Part shown: positions 2,763-39,482 of the stretch, piece by piece
Numbering within the stretch: the stretch's first letter is position 1
Layout: the number at the start of each line of letters is the position of its first letter
From: Actinotalea sp. Marseille-Q4924
GTDB taxonomy: Bacteria > Actinomycetota > Actinomycetes > Actinomycetales > Cellulomonadaceae
Reading direction: 5' to 3'
Assembly: GCF_916618755.1 (NCBI RefSeq)
Contig: NZ_CAKAKB010000001.1
Location: 1-64,000 of the forward strand
DNA: 64,000 nt
Made by a program: the position numbers and the translations under genes
Notes under the pieces: model-generated
Database searches by the model: none
What the model was told of the DNA's origin: nothing
What the model saw: the letters and a program-made list of their open reading frames with translations, nothing else

Positions 2763-5414
2763 GTGCTGCTCCCGCCAGTGGCCGCCGGGGGACGCACGGC
2801 GGCCCCTCCTCGCCCGGTTCCCGGGCTTGTCGCCGACCTCGCGCGCCACGGCGCCACGACGGCGCTCGTCGAGGACGGCCGACGGATCACGTTCGAGGAC
2901 CTGGACCGCCTCGTGCAGGAGCGGGCCGAGGCGCTCGGTCGCACGCGCCGTCTCGTCCTCGTGGCGATCACCGCGACGGCGTCGTCCGTCGTCGACTACC
3001 TCGGCGCCCTGCGGGGCGGCCACGTCGTCCTGCTCACGGCAGACGACGACGTCGTCGTCGACGGTCTGGTGATGGCGTACGACCCGGACGTCGTGCTCCG
3101 TCCGGGGGCGCCGGCCGACGAGCGGCGGGACGGGACGGCGCACGAGCTCCACCCGGACCTGACGTTGCTCCTGAGCACCTCGGGGTCGACGGGCTCGCCC
3201 AAGCTCGTGCGCCTGTCGCGCGACAACCTCGACAGCAACGCAGCCGCGATCGCGGCGTCGCTCGGGCTGGACGCGGACGACCGCGCGGTGACGAGCCTCC
3301 CCCTGCACTACACGTACGGTCTGTCCGTCCTGCACAGCCACCTGCACGTGGGTGGCGCGGTCGTCCTGACCCGGCTGTCCGTGGTGGACACGTGCTTCTG
3401 GGACCTCGTGCGAGCGGAGGGCGTCACCGGCGTCGCCGGGGTGCCGCACACGTTCGAGCTGCTGACCCGCACCGGTTTCACGGGGAACGACGTGTCGTCC
3501 CTGCGCCGGATCACCCAGGCCGGCGGCCGGCTCGCGCCTGAGGCCGTCCTGCGGTGGCACCAGACCGGCCGGCGCGCGGGCTGGGACCTCGTCGTCATGT
3601 ACGGGCAGACCGAGGCGACCGCGCGGATGGCGGTCCTGCCGCCGCACCTCACCGCCGCGCACCCGGGCGCGATCGGCCTGCCCGTTCCGGGTGGCGACCT
3701 GCGGGTCGAGCCCGTGCCGGAGACCGCCGACGACCCCGACGCCGGAGAGCTCGTCTACCGCGGGCCGAACGTCATGCTCGGCTACGCGGAGTCCCCGGCG
3801 GACCTCGGCCTCGGACGGACCCTCACCGAGCTGCGCACCGGGGACCTCGGACGTCGCCGCGACGGCGTGCTCGAGGTCGTCGGACGCCGCAGCCGGTTCG
3901 TCAAGGTGTTCGGGCTGCGGATCGACCTCGGGGTCCTCGAGTCACGCCTCGCGGACGCGGGCCTCGTGGCCGCCTGTGCGGGGGACGACGACGTGCTGGT
4001 GGTCGTCGTCGAGCGGGAGGGGCTCGACCGTGCGGGTCTCGTCGGCGTCGGGGCGGTCGAGGCCGTCCGGCGGCGGCTCGCCGGCGCGTGCGGCGTCCCG
4101 GGGACGGTGATCGACGTCGTCGTCGTGGAGGCGCTGCCCCGGCTGACGAGCGGCAAGGTGGACCTCGGCGCCGTGCGTGACCTCGCGGCCCGGCGGCGCG
4201 AGGGTGCGGCCGGGGCGACCCGACGGGACGAGGGTGCAGCCGGGGCGCCGTCGGCGCGGGGGAGCCGGGCCGACGACGCCGCGGCCCCGACGTCCGTCGG
4301 GGGCCTGTGCGCGCTGTACGCCGAGCTGCTCGAGCGGCCGGACGTCACGCCGGACAGCACGTTCGTCAGCCTGGGCGGGGACTCCCTGTCCTACGTGGAG
4401 ATGTCCGTCCGGCTGGAGGAGCGGCTGGGTGCGCTGCCGCCGGGGTGGCACGTGACGCCGGTGCGCGAGCTCGCCGCCGACGCGGCCCCACCGTCACGGG
4501 CGCGGCCGTGGACCGCAGGCCGGCTGGAGACGAGCGTGGCCCTGCGCGCCGTCGGCATCCTCCTGGTCGTCATGACACACTCGAACGTGCTCTTCGTGCC
4601 GGGCGGGGCGCACCTGCTCATGGGCGTCGCGGGCTACAACTTCGCGCGCTTCCAGCTGTCCGCCGTGGACCGGCGGACGCGGGTCAGGCGTGTCGGCGCG
4701 AGCCTCGCGCGGCTGCTCGTGCCGAGCATCCTGTGGATCGCGGTCGCGGGGGCGCTGACCGGTGCGTACTCGCCGACGACGGCGCTCATGCTCACCAACG
4801 TCCTGGGACCGGACCGGTGGGGGACCGCCTGGCACTTCTGGTTCCTCGAGGCCGTCGTGTGGCTCGTCGTCGGAGTGACGGTGCTGCTCTGCGTGCCGGC
4901 TCTGGACCGTGCGGAGCGGCGATGGCCGTTCGCGAGCGTCGGCGTGGTGCTGGGTGCGGGGATGCTGTTCCGTTACGACGTGCTGGTCCTGGACAGCGGG
5001 CCGGACATCCAGACACCGCAGAACCTGCTGTGGCTGTTCGCCCTCGGCTGGGCCGCCGCGCGCGCGGGTGACGTCTGGCAGCGCGTGGCCGTGACGGCGG
5101 CGGCCCTGGTCACCGTGCCGGGGTTCTTCGAGAGCCCGCTGCGGGAGGGCCTCGTCGTCGTCGCGCTCGCCCTGCTCGTGTGGGTGTCGAGCGTGCCGTT
5201 CCCGCGGGCCCTCGCCCGGGTGGCCGGCGTGCTCGCGGCGGGGTCGCTGTACGTCTACGTGACGCACTGGATGGTCTACCCGCCGCTGGAGGACGACTAC
5301 CCGGTGCTGGGGGTGCTGGCGTCGTTCGCCGTCGGGCTCGCGTACTGGCGTCTGTCGACGGTCGTCGTGAGCCGGGTCTCTCGGTGGCGGACGGGGCGGT
5401 CCCGGGACCGCTGA
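2763..5414 (+). CDS. Adenylation domain - carrier protein - membrane acyltransferase fusion
   Basis: A three-part protein of about 883 aa. Residues 1-475 are an AMP-binding acyl/aminoacyl-adenylating domain: the P-loop STSGSTGSPK, MYGQTEAT, the TGDLGRR motif and a C-terminal LTSGKVDL with the catalytic Lys. Residues about 510-585 are a phosphopantetheine carrier with the attachment Ser in GGDSLSY. From about residue 590 there is a multi-pass acyltransferase-3-like domain with a family-typical His (VVMTHSN). The likely chemistry is activation of an acid, loading on the carrier and transfer across or at the membrane; the substrate is unknown. A TTG at 2739 would lie inside the iron-box palindrome, so GTG 2763 is preferred, possibly leaderless from TAGGCT at 2750. 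It converges on the LuxR gene with 11 bases between stops. Confidence 0.85.
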   Translation: MLLPPVAAGGRTAAPPRPVPGLVADLARHGATTALVEDGRRITFEDLDRLVQERAEALGRTRRLVLVAITATASSVVDYLGALRGGHVVLLTADDDVVVDGLVMAYDPDVVLRPGAPADERRDGTAHELHPDLTLLLSTSGSTGSPKLVRLSRDNLDSNAAAIAASLGLDADDRAVTSLPLHYTYGLSVLHSHLHVGGAVVLTRLSVVDTCFWDLVRAEGVTGVAGVPHTFELLTRTGFTGNDVSSLRRITQAGGRLAPEAVLRWHQTGRRAGWDLVVMYGQTEATARMAVLPPHLTAAHPGAIGLPVPGGDLRVEPVPETADDPDAGELVYRGPNVMLGYAESPADLGLGRTLTELRTGDLGRRRDGVLEVVGRRSRFVKVFGLRIDLGVLESRLADAGLVAACAGDDDVLVVVVEREGLDRAGLVGVGAVEAVRRRLAGACGVPGTVIDVVVVEALPRLTSGKVDLGAVRDLAARRREGAAGATRRDEGAAGAPSARGSRADDAAAPTSVGGLCALYAELLERPDVTPDSTFVSLGGDSLSYVEMSVRLEERLGALPPGWHVTPVRELAADAAPPSRARPWTAGRLETSVALRAVGILLVVMTHSNVLFVPGGAHLLMGVAGYNFARFQLSAVDRRTRVRRVGASLARLLVPSILWIAVAGALTGAYSPTTALMLTNVLGPDRWGTAWHFWFLEAVVWLVVGVTVLLCVPALDRAERRWPFASVGVVLGAGMLFRYDVLVLDSGPDIQTPQNLLWLFALGWAAARAGDVWQRVAVTAAALVTVPGFFESPLREGLVVVALALLVWVSSVPFPRALARVAGVLAAGSLYVYVTHWMVYPPLEDDYPVLGVLASFAVGLAYWRLSTVVVSRVSRWRTGRSRDR

Positions 5415-6335: not shown

Positions 6336-9300
6336 ATGGTCCCGACCCGCTCCACGCGTGGTTCCCACCGCTCGCTGACGACGGAGCGACGACGACGGCA
6401 CGTCCCGAGGCGCTCGGCGGTCATCGTGACCGCGGGCGCCTTCGCCGTGAACCTCGTGGGGCCGGCCGCGCTGCCGGCGGTGGCGGCGGTGGGCGACTTC
6501 TCGCTCGACTTCGCCGCGGCGGCGCCCTACTCCTACAACTACATCACCGGTGGCGGGGCGTTCGACGACGGGACGATCGGCGTCGACAAGGACGTCGTCG
6601 AGTCCCTCGAGGGCGGGGACTACGCCTGCGGCGACATCGTCACGTACTTCACCAAGATCGTCGTGGACGACACCGCTGCCGCCGACGACGCGCAGACGAT
6701 CGAGCTCACGTACTCCTTCACGATGGACACCACCGGGCAGTCCGGTGTCGCCATCGGGGACATCACGTACGCGGGCATCAACTACGGGACGATCCAGGAC
6801 CTCATCCCGGGTGAGAACACCGTCGACGACGGGTTCGCCGACGAGGACGGGATCGTCGTCGACGACGGCGACAGCGTCGCGACGCTCGTCTACGAGCACG
6901 GTTCCGGCCCGATGTTCGAGCGCGGGTCGACCCTCACCGGCACGGTCGAGGTCACGGACCTCGAGGCCGGTGAGGTCGTCATCCTGCGCCTCGACACCCA
7001 GCTGTACTGCCAGGGCGGCGGCACGAGCCCGACGGGCAACCTCCAGGGCGACCTGGCCACGGCTGAGCTGACGTACATCGACGACACCTCCGCGGTGACC
7101 CCGCCGCAGACCATCCCCGGCGGCGCGCAGACCATCCCGTTCAAGCAGATCGGCGACCTGCAGTACCCCGAGCTGGTCATCCAGAAGACGGTGACGACCG
7201 AGGGGGCAGCCTGTCCCGGCGTCGAGAGCCTCACCGTCGCGGCCGGTGACGTGGTGCGGTACTGCTACGCCATCCGGAACGCAACAGGCTTCACCAGCAG
7301 TGCGGTCCCCGGGACCGCGCCGCTGTACGACCTGGTCGTGCGCGACGACAACGCGACGTCCGGCACGGCCGACGACTTCGACGTCATGCTGACGCTCGGG
7401 CTCACGGACGAGGACGGTGACGGCTTCGCCGACGACCTGGCCGCGGGTGGGTCCGCCTCCGGTGAGGCACTCGTGACCGTCCCGGCATCCGCGCCCCCGG
7501 GCACCGTGACGAACACCGCCACGGTGACCGGCGAGGTCAACGTCCTGCTCGGCGGCGGGACGATCTCCCGGACCGACACGGCGAGCGTCGTCGTGAGTGC
7601 GGCGCCGGCCATCGACATCGAGAAGACCCCGGACTCCCAGACGGTGACGGAGGGGGACGACGCCACCTTCACGATCACGGTCACGAACACGGGCAACGTC
7701 CAGCTGACCGACGTCACGGTCACGGACCCGAACTCGCCGAGCTGCGCGGCCACCATCGGCGCGCTCGCCGTCGGCGCGACGCATTCCTACCCCTGCTCGA
7801 TGACGCCCACGGCGAGCTTCACGAACACCGCCACGGCCACCGGCACGGGCGCCGGAACCCAGGTGACGGACTCCGACTCGGCGGACGTCGTGCTCGACCT
7901 CCTCCCCGCCGTCACGGTGACGAAGAGTGCGAACCCCACCTCCGTCCCCGAGACCGGCGGGAACGTCGACTTCACGTTCTCGGTGCAGAACGACAGCGCC
8001 GAGCCGGTCACCATCACCAGCCTCGACGACAGCGTGTTCGGCGAGCTGGTCGGCGACGGCGACTGCACCGTCGGGACCGAGCTGGCCGCCGGCGCGTCGT
8101 GCTCCTTCACATCGACCTTCGCCATCCCCGCCGGTGACGTGCCCGGCTCCCACGGGAACACGTTCACGGCCTGGGTCGAGGACCCCCAGGGCAACGACAC
8201 CAGCGACACCGACGACGAGACCGTCACGTACACCGACGTGCTCCCCGACGTCACGCTCACCAAGGACGTCGACCCCGCCTCCGTCGCGGAGACGGGCGGC
8301 GAGGTGACCTACACCTACGTCGTCACGAACAGCTCGGCCGAAGCCGCGACCATCACCGGGCTGAGCGACGACAGGCTGGGCACCCTGACCGGTGACGCCG
8401 ACTGCCAGGTCGGCACGGTCCTCGCCGGAGGCGCCTCCTGCTCCTTCACGGCAGGGGCCACGATCCCTCCGGGTGACTTCCCGATGGGGTACACCAACGT
8501 CGGCACGGTCACCGTCGCGGACGACGACGGCAACACCGACACGGGTACCGACAACGCGACGGTCATGTACACCGACGTCCTGCCGGACGTCAGCCTGACC
8601 AAGACGGCGGACCCGACCACGGTCCCGGAGAGCGGTGACGTCGAGGTGGTCTACACCTACGTCGTCACCAACAGCTCGGCCGAGGCCGCGACCATCACCG
8701 TCCTGGCCGACGACAGGATCGATCCGCTGGTCGGCGACGACGACTGCCAGGTCGGCACCGTCCTGCTCGGCCGCGCGTCCTGCACCTTCACCGCCACGGG
8801 CACCGTCCCACCGGGCGACGCCCCGGGCGGATACACCAACATCGGCTCCGTCACGGTCACGGACGGCGACGGCAACACCGACGTCGCCACCGACGACGAG
8901 ACGGTCACCTACACCGACGTCCCGCCGACGGTCCGGGTGGACAAGGCGGCTCTCCCGCTCTCCGTACCGGAGAACGGCGGCCTGGTGTCGTTCACCTTCT
9001 CGGTCACCAACACGTCCTTCGAGCCGGTGACCATCACGGCTCTCGAGGACGACGTGTTCATCGAGATCGACGGCAACGAGACCTGCCAGGTCGGCACGGT
9101 TCTCGACCCGGGTGAGACGTGCACCTTCACGGAGACGCATCGGCTCTCCGGCGACGTGGCCGCGCCGCACACGAACGTCTTCACCGCCACCGTCGCCGAC
9201 GACGAGGGCAGCACGGCGAGTGACGACGACGACGCGACGGTGGACTTCGCCGACGTGGCGCCGACGGTCGTCATCACCAAGACGCCCAGCGTCTCGGAGG

Positions 9301-24409: not shown

Positions 24410-25540
24410 CTACGAGGCGAAGCGGATGGGCACCAGGAGGTACCGGTACCCCTTGTCGTCCTCGCCCTCGAGCGAACCCTGGCCGGTGAACTCGACCGGC
24501 TTGTTCGGGTGCGTGAAGGACATCCGCACGAACTCCGTGTCGAGCGCACCCAGCCCGTCCAGCAGGAACTGCGGGTTGAACGCGACCGTGATGTCGTCCC
24601 CGGTCAGCGCCGCCTCCAGGGCTTCGGACGCCTGAGCATCATCACCCTGCCCGGCGTCGAGCACCACCTGGCCCTCGCTGAAGGCGAGCCGGATGGGCGT
24701 GTTGCGCTCCGCGACGAGCGAGACGCGGCGGGCGGCCTCGACGAGCACCTGCTTGGGCACGACCGCGTGGATGGGGGTGTCGTCCGGGAACAGCCGACGC
24801 ACCGCGGGGTACTCCCCGTCGACGAGCAGCGACGTCGTGTGCCGGCCGCCGGCCTCGAAGCCGATGAGGTCCACCCCGGCGCCGGTCGACAGCGCGACGG
24901 CGACGCGGTCGGACCCGCCGAGCGACTTCGCGGCGTCGGACAGCGTCCGGGCTCGCACCAGCGCTGTGGACGAGTAGTCCGGCGACGACGGCGTCCAGGT
25001 GAGCTCGCGCAGCGCGAGCCGGTAGCGGTCGGTGGCGAGCATCGTGATCCGCTCACCCTCGATCTCGACGCGCACGCCGGTGAGCAGCGGGAGCGTGTCG
25101 TCCCGGGATGCGGCGACGGTGACCTGGCCGACGGCGGCGGTCAGCTCGTCCCCGGCGATGCTCCCGACGACGTCCGGCATCGCCGGCAGAGCCGGGTAGT
25201 CCTCGACCGGCATCGTCAGGAGGGAGAACCGGCTCGCGCCGCACGTGACCGTGACCTTGGTGCCGTCGAGCACGACGTCGACGGGCTTGGCGGGCAGGGC
25301 GCGGGAGATCTCGGCGAGGAGCCGGCCGGAGACGAGCACCGTGCCGGGCTCGGCGACGTCCGCGGCGATCTCGGACCGCGCCGAGACCTCGTAGTCGAAG
25401 CTCGAGAGCTGGACCACGCCGCTGGAGTCGGCCTCGAGGCGGACACCGGCGAGCACCGGCACCGGGGGCCGGGTCGGCAGGGACCGGGCGGTCCAGGTGA
25501 CAGCCTCCGCCAGCACGTCGCGGTCGACCCTGAACCTCAT
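24410..25540 (-). CDS. dnaN: DNA polymerase III sliding clamp (beta subunit)
   Basis: The 376-aa clamp that tethers the polymerase to DNA, built of three similar domains. The first begins MRFRVDRDVLAEAVTWTARS, and the C-terminus ends VRMSFTHPNKPVEFTG... then YLLVPIRFAS, close to the universal LMPMRL ending. The length is normal. A GGAGG site precedes the ATG. It lies 13 bases from gnd. Upstream is the 751-base DnaA-box region separating it from dnaA. Confidence 0.97.
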   Translation of the reverse strand: MRFRVDRDVLAEAVTWTARSLPTRPPVPVLAGVRLEADSSGVVQLSSFDYEVSARSEIAADVAEPGTVLVSGRLLAEISRALPAKPVDVVLDGTKVTVTCGASRFSLLTMPVEDYPALPAMPDVVGSIAGDELTAAVGQVTVAASRDDTLPLLTGVRVEIEGERITMLATDRYRLALRELTWTPSSPDYSSTALVRARTLSDAAKSLGGSDRVAVALSTGAGVDLIGFEAGGRHTTSLLVDGEYPAVRRLFPDDTPIHAVVPKQVLVEAARRVSLVAERNTPIRLAFSEGQVVLDAGQGDDAQASEALEAALTGDDITVAFNPQFLLDGLGALDTEFVRMSFTHPNKPVEFTGQGSLEGEDDKGYRYLLVPIRFAS

Positions 25541-26291
25541 CGCTCATCCCTCCGCCTGCGGGGCCACCGCGGCGCGGGCGTCCCGCGGCCGCGGGGCAGC
25601 ACGCTGGGTGCGGCCCCGACGTCGACGCGGTCGCCGCCCGCCGCAGCGGTGGTGACCCGATGATCCGTCTCTGATCCGTGTGAACAGTACGCGAGTGCAC
25701 CGACGCGCCGCGCCGGACCGCACGGGCGGGTCGGACGCTCGTCGTCGAGGTCATGGCGCGACGCTCGTGCCTCGAGGAGGCCGTCCCGGCCGGGCGGGAC
25801 GAGCGGCCGGCGGCGGGCAGTGCGACCGACCCGGCGCTCCGCCGGGTCGCACCTCATGAAGGCGGTGTGGATCGAGGAGGAAGAGATCTGTCGTCGTCAT
25901 CATCGGTCCTGTGGACACTGTGGATGACGGTCGTCGGTGCAGGTCCCGTCGAGGAACGTGGTGTGGACGCGATGTCGACGGCGCTGTCGAGGGGGCTGGG
26001 CGTCGGTGGACGGTGAGGTGTCGTCCACGCTGCGTCCCCGGTGACCACAGGTGGCGTCCACATGGACGTGGCGAGTCGTCCACCGTCCTCCACAGCTCTT
26101 TCCACAGGTGTGTACAGCACCGGAAGAGCCCTTCGGGTGATCCACGGGGGCCGGAGGCGGGGTCGCGCGGGGCGACCCGGGCCGCCGTCGTCGTCGGGAG
26201 CCCAGGGTGCGGGGCCGGCTCGAGCGCCCGAGAACGTCACCCGGACGGAGCAGAAGGAGGCGGCTCGTGCGGGCGGCCGGGTGGCAGCCGG
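25541..26291. other. Replication-origin-like region between dnaA and dnaN
   Basis: A 751-base gap without a credible gene. It contains about ten DnaA-box-like 9-mers related to TTRTCCACA or its complement: 25866-25874, 25910-25918, 25919-25927, 25962-25970, 26005-26013, 26022-26030, 26054-26062, 26076-26084, 26086-26094 and 26138-26146, plus CTTTCCACA at 26098-26106. The two at 25910 and 25919 abut exactly. The left group reads TGTGGA and the right group mostly TCCACA, so orientation flips near 26015. A less GC-rich stretch lies at about 25870-25908. Position and box density make this the likely oriC core. Confidence 0.75.
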
Positions 26292-30304: not shown

Positions 30305-30382
30305 CCGTCGTCCCCTCATCCACACCGCCGGGTGCGCAGCATCGATGCGCACCCGGTGGGAACCGCAGGACAGGAGAGCACC

Positions 30383-30901
30383 ATGAGTGACGCACCGGAC
30401 GCTCCAGAGACGGGTCGCGACGGGTCGGACCTCCGTCGCCTCGAGGAGGAGGGCGAGATCGCGGCTGACTACCTCGAGGAGCTCCTCGACATCGCGGACG
30501 TGGACGGAGACATCGATATCGATGTCGACCACGGCAGGGCGGCTGTGGAGATCGTCGCGGAGAGCGGGTCCGAGCGCGGCCTGCGTCGACTCGTCGGGGC
30601 CGATGGCGAGGTGCTCGACGCCCTGCAGGAGCTCACGCGGCTCGCCGTGCAGGCGAAGACGGGCGAGCGGAGCCGGCTCATGCTCGACATCGCGGGGTAT
30701 CGGGCCGGACGGCGCGCCGAGCTCGCGGAGGTCGCTCGCACCGCGATCGCCGAGGTCCGGTCGACCGGTGCTGCCGTGGCGCTGGAGCCGATGAACCCGT
30801 TCGAGCGCAAGGTCGTGCACGACGTCGTGGCCGCCGCCGGCTTCGTCAGCGACAGCGAGGGTGTGGAGCCGTCGCGTCACGTCGTGGTCCGTCCGTCCTG
30901 A
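30383..30901 (+). CDS. khpB: KhpB/Jag-type KH-R3H RNA-binding protein
   Basis: A 172-aa RNA-binding protein. An acidic N-terminus (about residues 1-35) is followed by a KH domain with the GADGEVLDALQELTRLAV pattern, then an R3H domain from about residue 105 (RAELAEVARTAIAEV, then NPFERKVVHDVV with the Arg-x3-His spacing). This architecture matches Jag/SpoIIIJ-associated proteins encoded after yidC. It lacks the Jag-N domain of Firmicutes. The ATG at 30383 has AGGAGAGC upstream. Confidence 0.93.
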   Translation: MSDAPDAPETGRDGSDLRRLEEEGEIAADYLEELLDIADVDGDIDIDVDHGRAAVEIVAESGSERGLRRLVGADGEVLDALQELTRLAVQAKTGERSRLMLDIAGYRAGRRAELAEVARTAIAEVRSTGAAVALEPMNPFERKVVHDVVAAAGFVSDSEGVEPSRHVVVRPS

Positions 30902-30949: not shown

Positions 30950-31699
30950 GTGTCGATGACGGCCGGATCACCCGACGGTGGATCGATCGGCCCTGACACG
31001 GAGTCGGTGCGTCTGCTGCTGGGCGACCGGCTGCCTCTTGTGGAGCGGTACGCCCGGATGCTGGCCGACCAGGGGGTGGTCAGAGGGCTCGTCGGTCCCC
31101 GGGAGGTGCCGCGCCTGTGGGAGCGTCACCTCCTCAACTCCGCCGCCGTGGCGCCGTTCCTGCCGGACTCCGGGACGGTCGTCGACCTCGGCAGCGGTGC
31201 AGGACTGCCCGGAGTGGTGCTGGCCTGCCTGCGGCCGGACCTGCACGTCGTCCTCGTCGAGCCGATGCTGCGGCGTTGCGTGTGGCTCGAAGAGGTCGCC
31301 GGCGCCCTAGAGCTGTCCGAGGTCGAGGTCCGTCGCGGCCGCGCCGAGGAGCTGACGGGTCAGCTGTCCGGCGACGTCGTCACCGCTCGAGCCGTGGCGC
31401 CGCTGGACAGGCTCGCGGGCTGGGCGCTCCCGCTGTGTCGTGTCGGAGGTTCGTTGCTCGCACTCAAGGGCGAACGGGCGCAGGACGAGCTCGACGCGGC
31501 CCGTCCGGTTCTCGCCCCGCTCGGCGGCGACGACGGCGAGGTGCTGATGGCCCCGACGGTGCCCGAGATCCCTGCGACGTCGGTGGTGCGCGTCCGGAAG
31601 GTCGCTCCTGGCGTTCGCGTCACGGGCGGAGGTCCCCCCTCACGACAGGAGCGCCCGGGCCGGCGGGCCGGTCGCTCGGCACGGCGACAGCGCTCCTGA
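30950..31699 (+). CDS. rsmG: 16S rRNA (guanine-N7) methyltransferase RsmG
   Basis: A 249-aa SAM-dependent enzyme that methylates N7 of G527 of 16S rRNA (E. coli numbering). Visible are the family N-terminal signature RLPLVERYARMLADQGV, the PREVPRLWERHLLNSAAV segment, and the SAM-binding loop VVDLGSGAGLPGVVLAC. The start is uncertain: GTG 30950 and ATG 30956 are both in frame with a weak ribosome site. It is the last gene before the parS array. Loss of function in relatives gives low-level streptomycin resistance. Confidence 0.93.
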   Translation: MSMTAGSPDGGSIGPDTESVRLLLGDRLPLVERYARMLADQGVVRGLVGPREVPRLWERHLLNSAAVAPFLPDSGTVVDLGSGAGLPGVVLACLRPDLHVVLVEPMLRRCVWLEEVAGALELSEVEVRRGRAEELTGQLSGDVVTARAVAPLDRLAGWALPLCRVGGSLLALKGERAQDELDAARPVLAPLGGDDGEVLMAPTVPEIPATSVVRVRKVAPGVRVTGGGPPSRQERPGRRAGRSARRQRS

Positions 31700-31743
31700 T
31701 CGCGGGGCGGCCTTCGGACTCCGCCAGCGTGCACCGTGCGCAT

Positions 31744-31757
31744 GTTTCACGTGGAAC
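31744..31757. promoter_or_regulatory. parS site 1
   Basis: GTTTCACGTGGAAC, one change from the consensus palindrome GTTTCACGTGAAAC. Expected ParB binding site. Confidence 0.9.
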
Positions 31758-31903
31758 GTGCCCCCGTTGCGGTGTCGGGCCCAGCGCCGGTCTCAGGAAC
31801 AGCCGGCTTCATCCAGCCGACGACGTCCGAGCGGGCCGTGCTTGCGGATCGGGGCTCAGGGCGGAGCGCCTCCGGCACGGTCCACGGTGTCGCGGTACGC
31901 GCT

Positions 31904-31917
31904 GTTTCGCGTGGAAC
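31904..31917. promoter_or_regulatory. parS site 2 (variant)
   Basis: GTTTCGCGTGGAAC, two changes from consensus; the central CACGTG is CGCGTG. Probably weaker. Confidence 0.7.
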
Positions 31918-32065
31918 ACGTGATGTGTGGGGAGGCCGCCCTCAAGTCCGCGCCTCTTCGCCCCGCCGGGGTGCCGGCCGTAGGAGCGTGTCCTCGGCGG
32001 TTCTCCTTCACCCACCGGAATCCGTGAGCAGCCGACGTCGTGGGCACGCCCGGGTCTACAGCGGT

Positions 32066-32079
32066 GTTTCACGTGGAAC
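32066..32079. promoter_or_regulatory. parS site 3
   Basis: GTTTCACGTGGAAC, identical to site 1. Confidence 0.9.
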
Positions 32080-32212
32080 GGGAGAGCTCTGTGTCTCAGT
32101 GCTCTCCGAAAGTTCGTAGGTCCTCCATCGGCACACTGGTTGACAGGGCAGGTGTGGCGACGGTGCAGGCGGAGCCGGTTCCTTCCAGACGTCGGCGCGA
32201 ACGCACGTCGAT

Positions 32213-32226
32213 GTTGCACGTGGAAC
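32213..32226. promoter_or_regulatory. parS site 4 (variant)
   Basis: GTTGCACGTGGAAC, two changes from consensus. Confidence 0.75.
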
Positions 32227-32481
32227 GCCGAGCTCGATCCGTTGCGCACCGGAGGGTCACCGCTGCCTTGCCCTCCGATGGGCCGGCCTGGCCTGCTCGA
32301 GAGCGACCCTCAGTGGGCAGTCCGGCATGCACCGGACGTGAGCCGATGCGACTCCCACGGTCGGCGGTGGTCGACGGTGACGCTACGTGTTCGTCCACCC
32401 AGCCGCGACCACGGGGCGACCGGTCTTCTTGGGCGGTCGTCTTCCGCTGCACAGACCGCTGGAGCCGCACGACGTCTCTCC

Positions 32482-32495
32482 GTTTCACGTGAAAC
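32482..32495. promoter_or_regulatory. parS site 5 (perfect palindrome)
   Basis: GTTTCACGTGAAAC, the exact consensus, in the middle of the array. Confidence 0.95.
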
Positions 32496-32723
32496 GGCCG
32501 GGCGCGCCTTCGACTCAGTCCGTGACCGGGCCATCCGTTCGCCGGCTGGTGCAACAGCCGGATGCGCGGCCGGCACACCGACCACGTCAGACAGCCGACA
32601 AACGAGGGGCGACCGCCAACGCGGACGTCTCCGAACGGTGGTTGCGATGGGGCGCTTCGTTGCGTAGGTCCACGACCGGAAGCATCGATTCGCGGGGCAT
32701 CACGGCGCCTTGTGGACCACAGC

Positions 32724-32737
32724 ATTTCACGTGGAAC
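32724..32737. promoter_or_regulatory. parS site 6 (variant)
   Basis: ATTTCACGTGGAAC, two changes from consensus. Confidence 0.8.
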
Positions 32738-32895
32738 GTCAGCCGACATGGTGCGCGTCACGGCCCTTGACCGACACTGTGCGCGCCTGTGCCTGCGCAT
32801 TCGGTTCACGGGGTGTGTGCGTGCTTCGACGCAGCGCACCACGGCAGGCGCCCGGGCCGAGCCAACGCACGCCGTCACGACGAAATTCGGCCGCT

Positions 32896-32909
32896 GTTCC
32901 ACGTGAAAC
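32896..32909. promoter_or_regulatory. parS site 7
   Basis: GTTCCACGTGAAAC, the reverse orientation of site 1. Confidence 0.9.
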
Positions 32910-33026
32910 GGTCGCCCGATCACAGATGTGCGACCAGGACATGTTGAGAGTCGCACGCGACTGAAAGGTTAGGAGATCGGGCTGAGCCGGCGCGGCGCTC
33001 AGGCGGCCCTGCGGCGTGGCGCCGAG

Positions 33027-33040
33027 GTTCCACGTGAAAC
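33027..33040. promoter_or_regulatory. parS site 8
   Basis: GTTCCACGTGAAAC, identical to site 7. Confidence 0.9.
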
Positions 33041-33165
33041 CGACATCGCGCGGGTGTGAGCCGGCAACGAACGTGCCCGCGCGGGTGCACTCGTGTCTCG
33101 CCTGGACTGGGTTCAGAGCCACCGCATGAAGAGGTGCAGCCGGGTGACGTACCGAGGATGCCCAC

Positions 33166-33179
33166 GTTCCACGTGAAAC
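33166..33179. promoter_or_regulatory. parS site 9
   Basis: GTTCCACGTGAAAC, identical to site 7. Confidence 0.9.
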
Positions 33180-33349
33180 GCGCACCCGTTCCTGGTCGTG
33201 CGGTGGGGACAAGGCCGGGTGCCGCTGCCGGGGCCACCGTTGCACTCGTCTGCGGTGACTCGAAGGTGGGGCACCGGCGCACGGCGCGGTGCCGCAGCGT
33301 GCCTGTGGTCGATGGCAGGATGTACCCACTCGACTGAACGGGAGACGTA

Positions 33350-34348
33350 GTGGATCAGGACGCCACCTGGAGCGTTTCACGTGGAACAACCGCCGCGCTC
33401 TCCGACGACGAGCGCCGCGCTCTCCTCATCGAGAGCCTGCCGGAGGTCGACGACAGCACTCCGCTCGCCGCTCAGCTCGCAGCAGACGCCCGCCGAAGGA
33501 TCGACCTCTCGGGTCGTCGGTTCGAGAGGCCGCCCTCGACACGTGTCATCACCGTGGCGAACCAGAAGGGCGGGGTCGGCAAGACGACCACCACCGTCAA
33601 CATCGCCGCTGCGCTGGCGCAGGCAGGCTTGAACGTCCTCGTCGTCGACAACGACCCGCAAGGCAACGCCTCCACGGCCCTCGGCATCGAGCACCGCGCC
33701 GGCACCCCGTCCGTCTACGAGGTGCTGGTCGAAGGCGAGGACCTGGCAGCGGTGGTCCAGCCGTCGCCGGACATCGCCAGGCTCGAGTGCGCGCCGGCGA
33801 CCATCGACCTCTCCGGTGCGGAGATCGAGCTGGTGTCGCTCGTGGCGCGTGAGGGACGGCTGGGGAACGCCATCTCGGCGTACGTCGAGCAGCGGGCGCA
33901 GGAGGGGAACCGCCTGGACTACGTCTTCATCGACTGCCCACCGAGCCTCGGTCTCCTCACGGTAAACGCGTTCGTCGCAGCTCGCGAGGTCCTCATCCCC
34001 ATCCAGTGCGAGTACTACGCCCTCGAGGGCCTGAGCCAGCTGCTCAAGAACGTCCAGCTCATCAAGAACCACCTCAACCGGGACCTCCACGTCTCCACGA
34101 TCCTGCTCACGATGTACGACGCGCGGACGAACCTCGCGCAGCAGGTCGCTGCCGAGGTCAGGGAGCACTTCCCGGTCCAGACCCTCCGGACCACGGTGCC
34201 TCGGTCGGTGCGGATCTCGGAGGCGCCGAGCCATGCGCAGACCGTGATGACCTATGACCCGGGATCCACCGGCGCCCTCGCGTACCTCGCGGCCGCGCGC
34301 GAGATCGCGCAGCGAGCCATGACCCAGCAGAACACCCAGGAGCACTGA
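33350..34348 (+). CDS. parA: Chromosome partitioning ATPase ParA
   Basis: A 332-aa Walker-type ATPase that drives origin segregation with ParB. The deviant Walker [15 protein letters not shown] is near residues 70-83, with Walker A' [11 protein letters not shown] and Walker [15 protein letters not shown]. The signature Lys of the deviant P-loop (KGGVGKT) is present. About 60 residues precede the ATPase core; this N-terminal extension contains a parS site in its coding DNA. The GTG start at 33350 follows GGGAGAC. It overlaps parB by one base (TGATG). Confidence 0.96.
33374..33387. promoter_or_regulatory. parS site 10, inside parA
   Basis: GTTTCACGTGGAAC lies in codons 9-13 of parA and encodes part of VSRGT. 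It is 24 bases from the start codon, so ParB bound here could affect parAB expression. Confidence 0.85.
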
Positions 34349-35667
34349 TGGCGGAGAAGCGACGCGGACTCGGACGAGGGCTCGGAGCCCTCATCCCCAG
34401 CGGACCCAGCGGAGCCGACCGGCCGGTCGACGTCTTCTTCCCCGGTAGCGCAGCGGCCGTGGCACTCGACGAGAACGCACCGCCGGAGGTCCCGCACCAG
34501 GGCTCCGAGCCGGACCTCGCGGGTCTGGGGCGGCCGCGCGGTGCCCTTCTGCGCGACGGGGCCGAGACGGCGACGGAGGCGTCCGCACGGGACGGCATCG
34601 TGGCTCGCGAGGATGCCCCCGGGGGCATGCAGGAGACTGCGGGTGACGAGGTGGCTGCGGCCGAGGACGCCGCCGTCGACGCGACGGCGTCGGCATCGTC
34701 CGACACGTCGACGCCAGCCGGCACCCCCATGCCTGCCGTGCAGGACACCACGCCGCCTGCGGCGGATCCCACCGTGGTGACGGCACCGCAGGAGGACGAG
34801 CGCACCGACGCTCCGGACGACGGCACATCGCTCGTGCCCGTGCCCGGGGTGCACTTCGCCGAGGTCCCCGTCGAGGCGATCCGCCCCAACCCGCGGCAGC
34901 CCCGGACGGTGTTCGACGAGGACGCGCTCGCCGAGCTGGTCGGCTCGATCAGGGAGATCGGGGTCCTCCAGCCGGTGGTCGTCCGTCCCGTACCGGGCGA
35001 GGACGGTGCGCAGTACGAGCTCATCATGGGTGAGCGTCGCTGGCGTGCCACCCAGAAGGCCGGACTGCCGACGATCCCGGCGATCGTCCGCGAGACCGAG
35101 GACCATGACCTCCTGCGGGACGCGCTGCTCGAGAACCTGCACCGCAGCCAGCTGAACGCCCTCGAGGAGGCGGCTGCCTACCAGCAGCTGCTCGACGACT
35201 TCGGGTGCACCCACGAGGAGCTCGCCACCCGGATCCACCGGTCCCGGCCGCAGATCTCCAACACCCTGCGCCTGCTCAGGCTCCCGCCGCTTGTCCAGCG
35301 GCGTGTGGCGGCCGGCGTGCTCTCGGCAGGGCACGCCCGGGCGCTGCTCGGCCTGCCCGACGCCGCGGCGATGGAACGACTGGCGCAGCGCATCGTCGCC
35401 GAGGGGCTGTCGGTCCGCGCCACGGAGGAGATCGTCACGCTGGGCGGCGACCCCGAGCGGCGCGCACCCGTGCGGCGTCCTCGCGCCGGTGGACGGAACC
35501 TCGCCCTCGACGACCTCGCGAGCAGGCTCTCGGATCGATTCGACACCCGCGTGAAGATCGCGCTCGGCAAGAACAAGGGACGGCTCACCGTCGAGTTCGC
35601 CTCGGTCGACGACCTCAACCGCATCCTCGCCACGCTGTCACCGGACGATCCCGGCCTCCTGCGCTGA
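34348..35667 (+). CDS. parB: Chromosome partitioning protein ParB
   Basis: A 439-aa CTP-dependent clamp that loads at parS. The N-terminus [17 protein letters not shown] is the ParA-contact motif. An unusually long acidic, Ala/Thr/Pro-rich linker (about residues 20-165) follows. The CTP-binding domain begins near residue 169 ([15 protein letters not shown], then [14 protein letters not shown]), and the parS-binding helix-turn-helix follows ([34 protein letters not shown]). The C-terminal dimer domain ends the protein. It is translated directly after parA, and the parS array is immediately upstream of the operon. Confidence 0.96.
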
Positions 35668-38496: not shown

Positions 38497-39482
38497 AGGG
38501 TCTCCTCGATCGTCTCGGTCAGGGTGCCGGTCGCGAGGTCCGCGAGGTCGGCGAGGTAGTGCTGCGCGTCGAGCGCGGCGGCGCAGCCCGTGCCGGCGGC
38601 GGTGATCGCCTGGCGGTACACGTGGTCGACGAGGTCGCCGCACGCGAAGACGCCCTCGAGGGTCGTCCCGGTGCCGCGAGCACCCTCGCCGCCGACGAGC
38701 ACGTAGCCGTTCTCGTCCACGGCGACCTGGTCCTTGACCAGCTCCGACCGCGGGACGTGCCCGATGGCCACGAACATGCCCGTCACGTCGAGACGCCGCT
38801 GCTCGCCCGTCCCGGTGTCGGTGAGAGTGAGGCCCTCGAGCTTGGGGTCGCCGTGGATCTCCGACACGACGCTGTTCCACGCGAAACGGATCTTGGGGTC
38901 GCTGTGCGCGCGGTCGGCCATGATCTTCGATGCCCGCAGCTCGCCACGGCGGTGGACGATCGTGACGCTGCGTGCGAACCGGGTGAGGAAGGTCGCCTCC
39001 TCCACGGCGGAGTCCCCGCCGCCGATGACCGCGACGTCCTGGTCCCGGAAGAAGAACCCGTCGCAGGTGGCGCACCACGACACCCCGTGCCCGGACAGCT
39101 CCTTCTCCCGCGGCAGGCCGAGCTCCCGGTAGGCGGACCCGGTCGCGAGGACCACCGCGCGGGCACGGATCACGTCGCCGTTGCCGGTTCGTACGGTCTT
39201 GACGGGGCCGGCCAGCTCCGCCTCGGTGACGTCGTCGTACCGGATGTCGGCACCGAAGCGCTCCGCCTGCTTCCTCATGTTCTCCATGAGGTCGGGGCCC
39301 ATGATGCCGTCGACGAACCCGGGGAAGTTCTCCACCTCGGTCGTGTTCATGAGCGCCCCGCCAGCGGTCACCGAGCCGGCGACGACGACGGGCGCGAGGC
39401 CGGCCCGTGCGGCGTACACGGCAGCGGTGTACCCGGCCGGACCCGATCCGATGATGACGACGTCGTGGACGGTGTCGCTCAC
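38493..39482 (-). CDS. trxB: Thioredoxin-disulfide reductase
   Basis: A 329-aa FAD/NADPH enzyme that reduces thioredoxin. The FAD site [17 protein letters not shown] is at the N-terminus, the redox-active pair is [11 protein letters not shown] (about residues 143-153), the NADPH site is [12 protein letters not shown], and the C-terminal FAD motif is [16 protein letters not shown]. The GTG at 39482 follows GAAGGAAG; an upstream ATG is less likely. A parS-like 14-mer lies in the coding sequence at 38874-38887. Confidence 0.97.
38874..38887. promoter_or_regulatory. parS-like sequence inside trxB
   Basis: GTTCCACGCGAAAC differs from the consensus at two positions and carries the same central transition (ACGCG in place of ACGTG) as site 2 in the array. 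It is 5.5 kb from the main cluster. It could be an outlying weak parS or chance. Confidence 0.4.

Follow-up and report, generated by a model that had tools for sequence, protein, structure and literature searches.

A ten-site parS array beside parAB in Actinotalea sp. Marseille-Q4924, very probably a ParB-loading centromere

In Bacillus subtilis, parS sites are scattered over a far longer origin region than the array described here. Much denser arrangements have been reported; published statements are given here as they stand in excerpts of the cited papers. In Myxococcus xanthus, 22 sites lie within 3 kb, approximately 4 kb upstream of parA (PMC3899335, PMC3778016). In Corynebacterium glutamicum, ParB ChIP signal was reported at all ten parS sites, and degenerate sites with at least three mismatches showed no ParB recruitment (PMC7083940). 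Here, we analyzed a stretch of 64,000 nucleotides of Actinotalea sp. Marseille-Q4924 (hereafter the window), in which a first-pass annotation had pointed out an array of parS-like sites next to parAB.

The parS array and its genomic setting

Scanning the window with up to three mismatches to GTTTCACGTGAAAC yielded 12 matches, whereas 0.66 are expected and the maximum of 100 shuffles was four. Ten 14-mers with at most two bases off this consensus span 31744–33387, approximately 1.65 kb; nine of these fall within the 1,650 bp that separate rsmG from parA, and the tenth lies in frame within parA (Table 1). The start-to-start spacings along the array are 160, 162, 147, 269, 242, 172, 131, 139, and 208 bp. 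One site is perfect, six carry one change, and three carry two (31904, 32213, and 32724). The scan thus reproduces what the first-pass annotation had listed, namely nine gap 14-mers and a tenth in parA at distances of 131–269 bp, seven of the ten within one base of the consensus, and a single perfect palindrome at 32482. The two window matches outside the array lie at 3475 and 38874. The genome comprises 3.64 Mb in six contigs and is 99.99% complete; it contains 12 sites with at most two mismatches, all inside the window and ten in the array. An equal density elsewhere, which had been named as evidence against a dedicated array, is absent. The remaining two genomic sites (3475–3488 and 38874–38887) are both less than 29 kb from the array, and the latter is the 31904 variant in reverse complement.

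Table 1. Features of the window around the parS array
Feature	Position	Strand	Details
dnaN	24410..25540	-	TIGR00663, 258.9 bits, exceeds cut-off
Presumed oriC (dnaN-dnaA gap)	25541..26291	.	From gene order
dnaA	26292..28157	-	TIGR00362, 519.2 bits, exceeds cut-off
jag/khpB, match under curated cut-off	30332..30901	+	NF041568, 97.5 bits (cut-off 145)
rsmG	30950..31699	+	TIGR00138, 121.9 bits (cut-off 99.5)
Gap with nine of ten parS sites	31700..33349	.	1,650 bp, 68% GC
parS 1	31744..31757	+	GTTTCACGTGGAAC
parS 2	31904..31917	+	GTTTCGCGTGGAAC, 2 mismatches
parS 3	32066..32079	+	GTTTCACGTGGAAC
parS 4	32213..32226	+	GTTGCACGTGGAAC, 2 mismatches
parS 5	32482..32495	.	GTTTCACGTGAAAC, perfect palindrome
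parS 6	32724..32737	+	ATTTCACGTGGAAC, 2 mismatches
parS 7	32896..32909	+	GTTCCACGTGAAAC
parS 8	33027..33040	+	GTTCCACGTGAAAC
parS 9	33166..33179	+	GTTCCACGTGAAAC
parA	33350..34348	+	Pfam AAA_31, 189.7 bits; sole own-genome match at E<=1e-60
parS 10	33374..33387	+	GTTTCACGTGGAAC; in frame in parA, encodes V-S-R-G-T
parB	34348..35667	+	TIGR00180, 190.8 bits (cut-off 58.45); best solved match 6t1f

Beyond dnaN and dnaA, the gene order is yidC, jag, rsmG, parA, and parB, and the cognate ParA and ParB are encoded beside the array. We infer from this gene order that oriC lies in the gap between dnaN and dnaA. The presumed oriC contains two adjacent DnaA-box-like words at 25910–25927 with one mismatch each, a class of word found 12 times in the whole window against 6.25 expected. 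Because dnaN and dnaA flank this presumed oriC, the array would lie 5.5–7.8 kb from it. Additionally, a full SMC gene scoring over its cut-off is present elsewhere in the genome.

The rsmG-parA gap of the window looks non-coding, in agreement with its earlier description as a gene-free stretch. An Rfam search over the window returned only two distant tRNAs and no match in the gap. Twelve ORFs of at least 100 aa touch the gap; nine were scanned, the other three lying partly in rsmG or parA, and Pfam at E 0.1 gave zero matches for these nine. The parA frame is open for merely 12 bp upstream of the parA start, and the GC content by codon phase is flat in the gap (0.70, 0.67, and 0.68), compared with 0.69, 0.46, and 0.89 in parA. 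Promoter-like and terminator-like sites were absent from the gap, which carries little weight since only 0.1 and 0.9, respectively, are expected. Within parB, ARAGORN placed a tRNA-Asp on the minus strand at 35555–35639, which does not appear among the Rfam matches and is probably false.

ParB exceeds the general ParB model TIGR00180 (Table 1). Its best solved match, 6t1f, is a ParB, which we take to be that of Caulobacter; GERRWRA and one 15-residue stretch align with it, and both are presumably CTP-binding. The top-scoring NCBIfam model for the protein is TIGR04285 of Noc, at 207.8 bits against a cut-off of 315, so the protein falls short of a Noc assignment although this model scores best. 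Noc-binding sites (NBS) resemble the window parS sites in that they serve a related protein family and form a similar palindrome. In contrast, excerpts of PMC7383237 give positions 1 and 6 as those that separate NBS from parS. None of the window sites carries the NBS bases at these positions in both halves, and their variation lies mainly at position 4.

The sites of the window are spaced more evenly than chance (CV 0.25; smallest-gap P 0.0001 and CV P 0.0009 under non-overlapping random placement, the test having been made after the evenness was seen). Among 54 gaps that hold four or more sites, the smallest-gap P was below 0.05 in seven (median 0.24) and the CV P in six (median 0.47); with a null that permits overlap, these numbers are ten and six. 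Regular spacing as a general rule is therefore rejected, while a mild avoidance of short spacings between sites may exist. Judged by eye, the site offsets share no phase modulo 10.4–10.6 bp.

No tandem repeat spans the window sites, the only two rows found being 16 and 21 bp long, and the flanks are similar in one weak pair, 46 nt at 32896 and 33166 that are 72% alike. On these grounds, visible tandem duplication is rejected as the origin of the array; an old, decayed duplication is possible. The array of genome G037 grew by duplication: at 7241–7470 of its locus (L155), five direct repeats of 54 bp (18 codons) in a parA-frame stretch carry one parS per copy, three perfect and two with one change. 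Five perfect parS sites, 32–35 bp apart, occupy positions 851–999 of locus L181 (G043), in a jag-rsmG gap of 276 bp.

Sites and inter-site DNA among relatives

To the nearest relative fetched (G004), parA, parB, and rsmG of the window are 86, 78, and 72% identical. Comparison of the window gap with that of G004 gave 0.502, and five shuffles gave 0.485–0.501; the inter-site DNA is therefore unalignable even with this genome. In G013, rsmG was not located, and the last 1,650 bp upstream of parA gave 0.587, with shuffles at 0.563–0.586. The exceptions are local matches of 27–41 bp with G004 and a parA-proximal match of 207–214 bp, of which 150 bp is parA itself. G004 keeps eight gap sites and one site in parA. 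Collectively, these comparisons show that across relatives the sites persist while the filler between them turns over.

The site was recovered in 18 of the 19 genomes of the genus (own genome included) and in 17 of the 17 good ones; G011 (83% complete and without sites, its parA lying at a contig edge) was left out of the family table. The array lies mainly in the jag-rsmG gap in eight of the 15 scored genus genomes and in the rsmG-parA gap in the other seven, a distribution that needs at least three changes on a ParA-ParB tree of 98 rows built with a quick method. In G012, which belongs to the rsmG-parA group, the gap is 92% open in the parA frame, the codon-phase GC is flat, and the sister genome G008 has its array in the same place. 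When parA contains a site, as in 14 genus loci, this site is always in frame 0 and codes for V-S/P-R-G/E-T.

The survey of named relatives took 80 loci, of which 71 were readable (nine without the Walker anchor are uncounted); for three without a located rsmG, the count covered a set length of approximately 2.7 kb. Between rsmG and the Walker motif of parA, 62 of the 71 loci have at most three sites, and nine have at least four, one of which (L024) is among those lacking a located rsmG and counted over the set length. The nine include Actinotalea, Agromyces, Demequina, Flaviflexus, and Janibacter. The earlier statement that few sites near parAB are usual therefore holds for the rsmG-parA gap among the named relatives, but some of these have many sites close by; L033 and L035 carry 12 and 11 sites, respectively, from 6 kb upstream to 4 kb downstream. 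Within the family, in contrast, a jag-rsmG or rsmG-parA gap that looks non-coding and contains at least four sites is present in 50 of 88 genomes.

The family table comprises 98 genomes, and the four anchor genes are all present in 88 of them. Of at least 181 family genomes outside the genus, 80 were taken, hand-picked among those listed, and 42 of these are from group g20. Across the 88 loci, gaps were regarded as non-coding-looking when the frame of the next gene was not open through them; they contain 356 sites (2.30 per kb), compared with 174 (0.51 per kb) in the other jag-to-parB sequence. Longer gaps have more sites (Spearman 0.78). The density of the window, 5.5 per kb, ranks fifth of the 50; thus, its array is compact, not unique.

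In groups g20 and g16, the parA frame is open over at least 90% of every rsmG-parA gap that is 400 bp or longer (30 of 30 and four of four gaps, respectively), and all 70 parS sites in these stretches are in phase with parA; L143, L148, and L198 are examples of such open stretches. The idea that every rsmG-parA gap in the family is non-coding is therefore rejected. These stretches are probably N-terminal ParA extensions in which parS forms a repeated V-S/P-R-E/G-T peptide. Gaps open in the parA frame are excluded from the density counts of the family, and the arm tests below, which kept all gaps as non-coding by label, were rechecked on jag-rsmG sites alone.

T and C arms of the parS sites

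Position 4 of each parS half is T or C and is the main point of variation. Excerpts of PMC7022226 name both GTTCCAC and GTTTCAC as half-parS. The C arm, which the first-pass annotation had labeled non-consensus, is therefore a recognized half-site, and sites with one arm of each type (mixed sites) are not new as such.

Among 592 exact T/C-type sites from 97 genomes (G005, which spans two contigs, was merged), 297 are T/T, 258 are mixed, and 37 are C/C. If the two arms combined independently inside each genome, 191 ± 8.6 mixed sites would be expected; the observed 258 was not reached in any of 5,000 shuffles. Similarly, mixed sites make up 74 of 105 in the genus (51.5 ± 4.9 expected) and 116 of 258 when only jag-rsmG sites are used (84.1 ± 5.8 expected). 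A GC-rich clade of seven genomes has 19 C/C, 17 mixed, and no T/T sites among 36, and the mixed excess is not significant there (p 0.09). In L158 (G183) and L159 (G190), most exact sites read GTTCCACGTGGAAC (four of five and five of six, respectively), with no T/T site. Furthermore, the C-arm fraction rises with the GC content of the locus (Spearman 0.67, 94 genomes; independent contrasts, r 0.33, p 0.001, 92 contrasts), shared ancestry being only partly removed from the arm statistics. These counts suggest that GC pressure may be opposed by a constraint that restricts each site to roughly one C arm.

Two other explanations bear on these counts. The C arm may lack functional meaning and simply arise by GC-biased mutation where ParB is lax about the base. 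Its tracking of locus GC agrees with this explanation; however, free mutation would leave the arms independent, whereas they are negatively associated within genomes, also among jag-rsmG sites alone, and we regard the explanation as doubtful. Mutation pressure and a one-C limit can both hold. Alternatively, the excess may come from the copying of founder sites with one C arm and not from selection against two C arms, a possibility that we rate below even chances but slightly above the former. The orientation of mixed sites is more uniform within genomes than chance (dispersion 73.6 vs 47.1 ± 8.5, p 0.0024; 225 sites, 48 genomes), duplications that carry parS exist in the 54-bp repeats of G037, and the 32896 and 33166 flanks of the window are weakly similar, all of which would fit copying. 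In contrast, the excess survives the merging of sites with similar flanks (231 vs 166 ± 8) and is retained in the 39 genomes whose mixed sites point both ways (186 of 257 vs 127 ± 7.5, although picking genomes in this way in itself favors mixed sites), and the window lacks a tandem repeat across its sites.

The orientation bias in some relatives, with mixed sites pointing mostly one way, is real. For the window, a polarity had been described in which the C arm changes side along the array. Most sites follow the described arm order, but the one at 33374 reverts, and because three or fewer runs arise in nine of 84 arrangements, the polarity of the window array is not shown. Across 48 loci, 124 runs were counted against 123.4 ± 4.5 expected. 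Block polarity, which would mark a polar (directional) parS array, is therefore not supported in the window or across these loci.

Genomes whose ParB has H before RSR show a mean C fraction of 0.41 (50 genomes), compared with 0.11–0.17 for S, A, or Q (42 genomes) and 0.50 for F (one genome); among seven independent pairs, an average of 0.8 agree with this direction and 0 oppose it. For R and K at LRLL[RK]LP of ParB, the means are 0.33 and 0.19, and the independent pairs are 1.1 vs 1.0. A ParB residue switch that sets the C arm was dropped as a candidate, given only seven independent pairs at 0.8 vs 0.

Centromere reading and comparison with known systems

We consider it very probable that the array is the ParB-loading centromere of the chromosome, of the ordinary ParABS type and near oriC. 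The reading as a dedicated centromere next to parAB, put forward in the first-pass annotation, gains support from the identity and clustering of the sites, their exclusivity in the genome, the adjoining ParA and ParB genes, the presence of an SMC gene in the genome, and the upkeep of the sites amid inter-site turnover. By analogy with established ParABS knowledge, ParB dimers would bind the 14-mers and would close as CTP clamps on parS, and the closed clamps would slide onto the inter-site and flanking DNA. ParB would also recruit SMC, and ParA would move ParB so that sister origins part. Several loading sites in a non-coding stretch this close to the presumed oriC would provide one compact, redundant loading zone, assuming low transcription of the rsmG-parA gap.

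The two mismatches of three of the ten sites count against this reading, as does the top score of the Noc model for ParB, albeit under its cut-off; in excerpts on M. xanthus, parS with two substitutions is bound approximately ten-fold more weakly (PMC3778016). For C. glutamicum, one of the ten sites is reported to suffice for wild-type growth and division (PMC7083940), and most copies of the array may therefore be redundant. It is very improbable that the sites chiefly regulate parAB, by autorepression or as a roadblock upstream of the operon, instead of serving as a centromere. The array does reach up to and into parA, and the in-frame position of every parA-internal site in the genus would suit such a role, but the array lies mainly upstream of rsmG in eight of the 15 scored genus genomes, and the own genome has no other site cluster able to be the centromere.

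With the centromere reading preferred, a joint reading of the family data can be proposed tentatively, and we hold it to be less likely than the centromere assignment by far. The centromere would consist of a few 14-mers in free DNA, with the filler replaced between close species and the array shifting between the two gaps around rsmG; selection would act on the summed site strength and allow one C arm, seldom two, which would favor the asymmetric site, and in the very GC-rich clade the limit would have moved to two C arms, perhaps accompanied by changes where the recognition helix of ParB begins. A compact bacterial centromere with changeable flanks and persistent sites would be a simple counterpart to the fast-changing eukaryotic centromeres. 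Sites in the family grade from T/T through T/C to C/C, a natural series in which the required strength of a ParB loading site, and the way ParB and parS change together, can be approached.

A search of open-licence papers for parS, ParB, and Actinotalea in combination found none, and the open-licence literature likewise yielded no paper on array relocation, filler turnover, or arm constraint in the family. All three of these features may be new.

The mixed arms themselves recall B. subtilis, as excerpts of several ParB papers, at least two on this species, print a mixed-arm 16-mer, which we take to be the parS used in B. subtilis work. Like the window, M. xanthus has a dense array near oriC with mixed orientations (PMC3899335, PMC3778016). 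In contrast, according to the excerpts, its sites are more numerous and denser, with the consensus TGTTCCACGTGGAACG and C in both arms, whereas those of the window mostly have one T and one C arm, and the array abuts parA. The parS1–10 sites of C. glutamicum also number ten, nine of them intergenic, in one oriC-proximal cluster; however, they are spread across 35 kb, lie 73 kb from oriC, and are identical in sequence as given in excerpts of PMC7083940. Collectively, the window array belongs to the known kind of parS clusters, of which dense examples are already described for M. xanthus in the excerpts cited.
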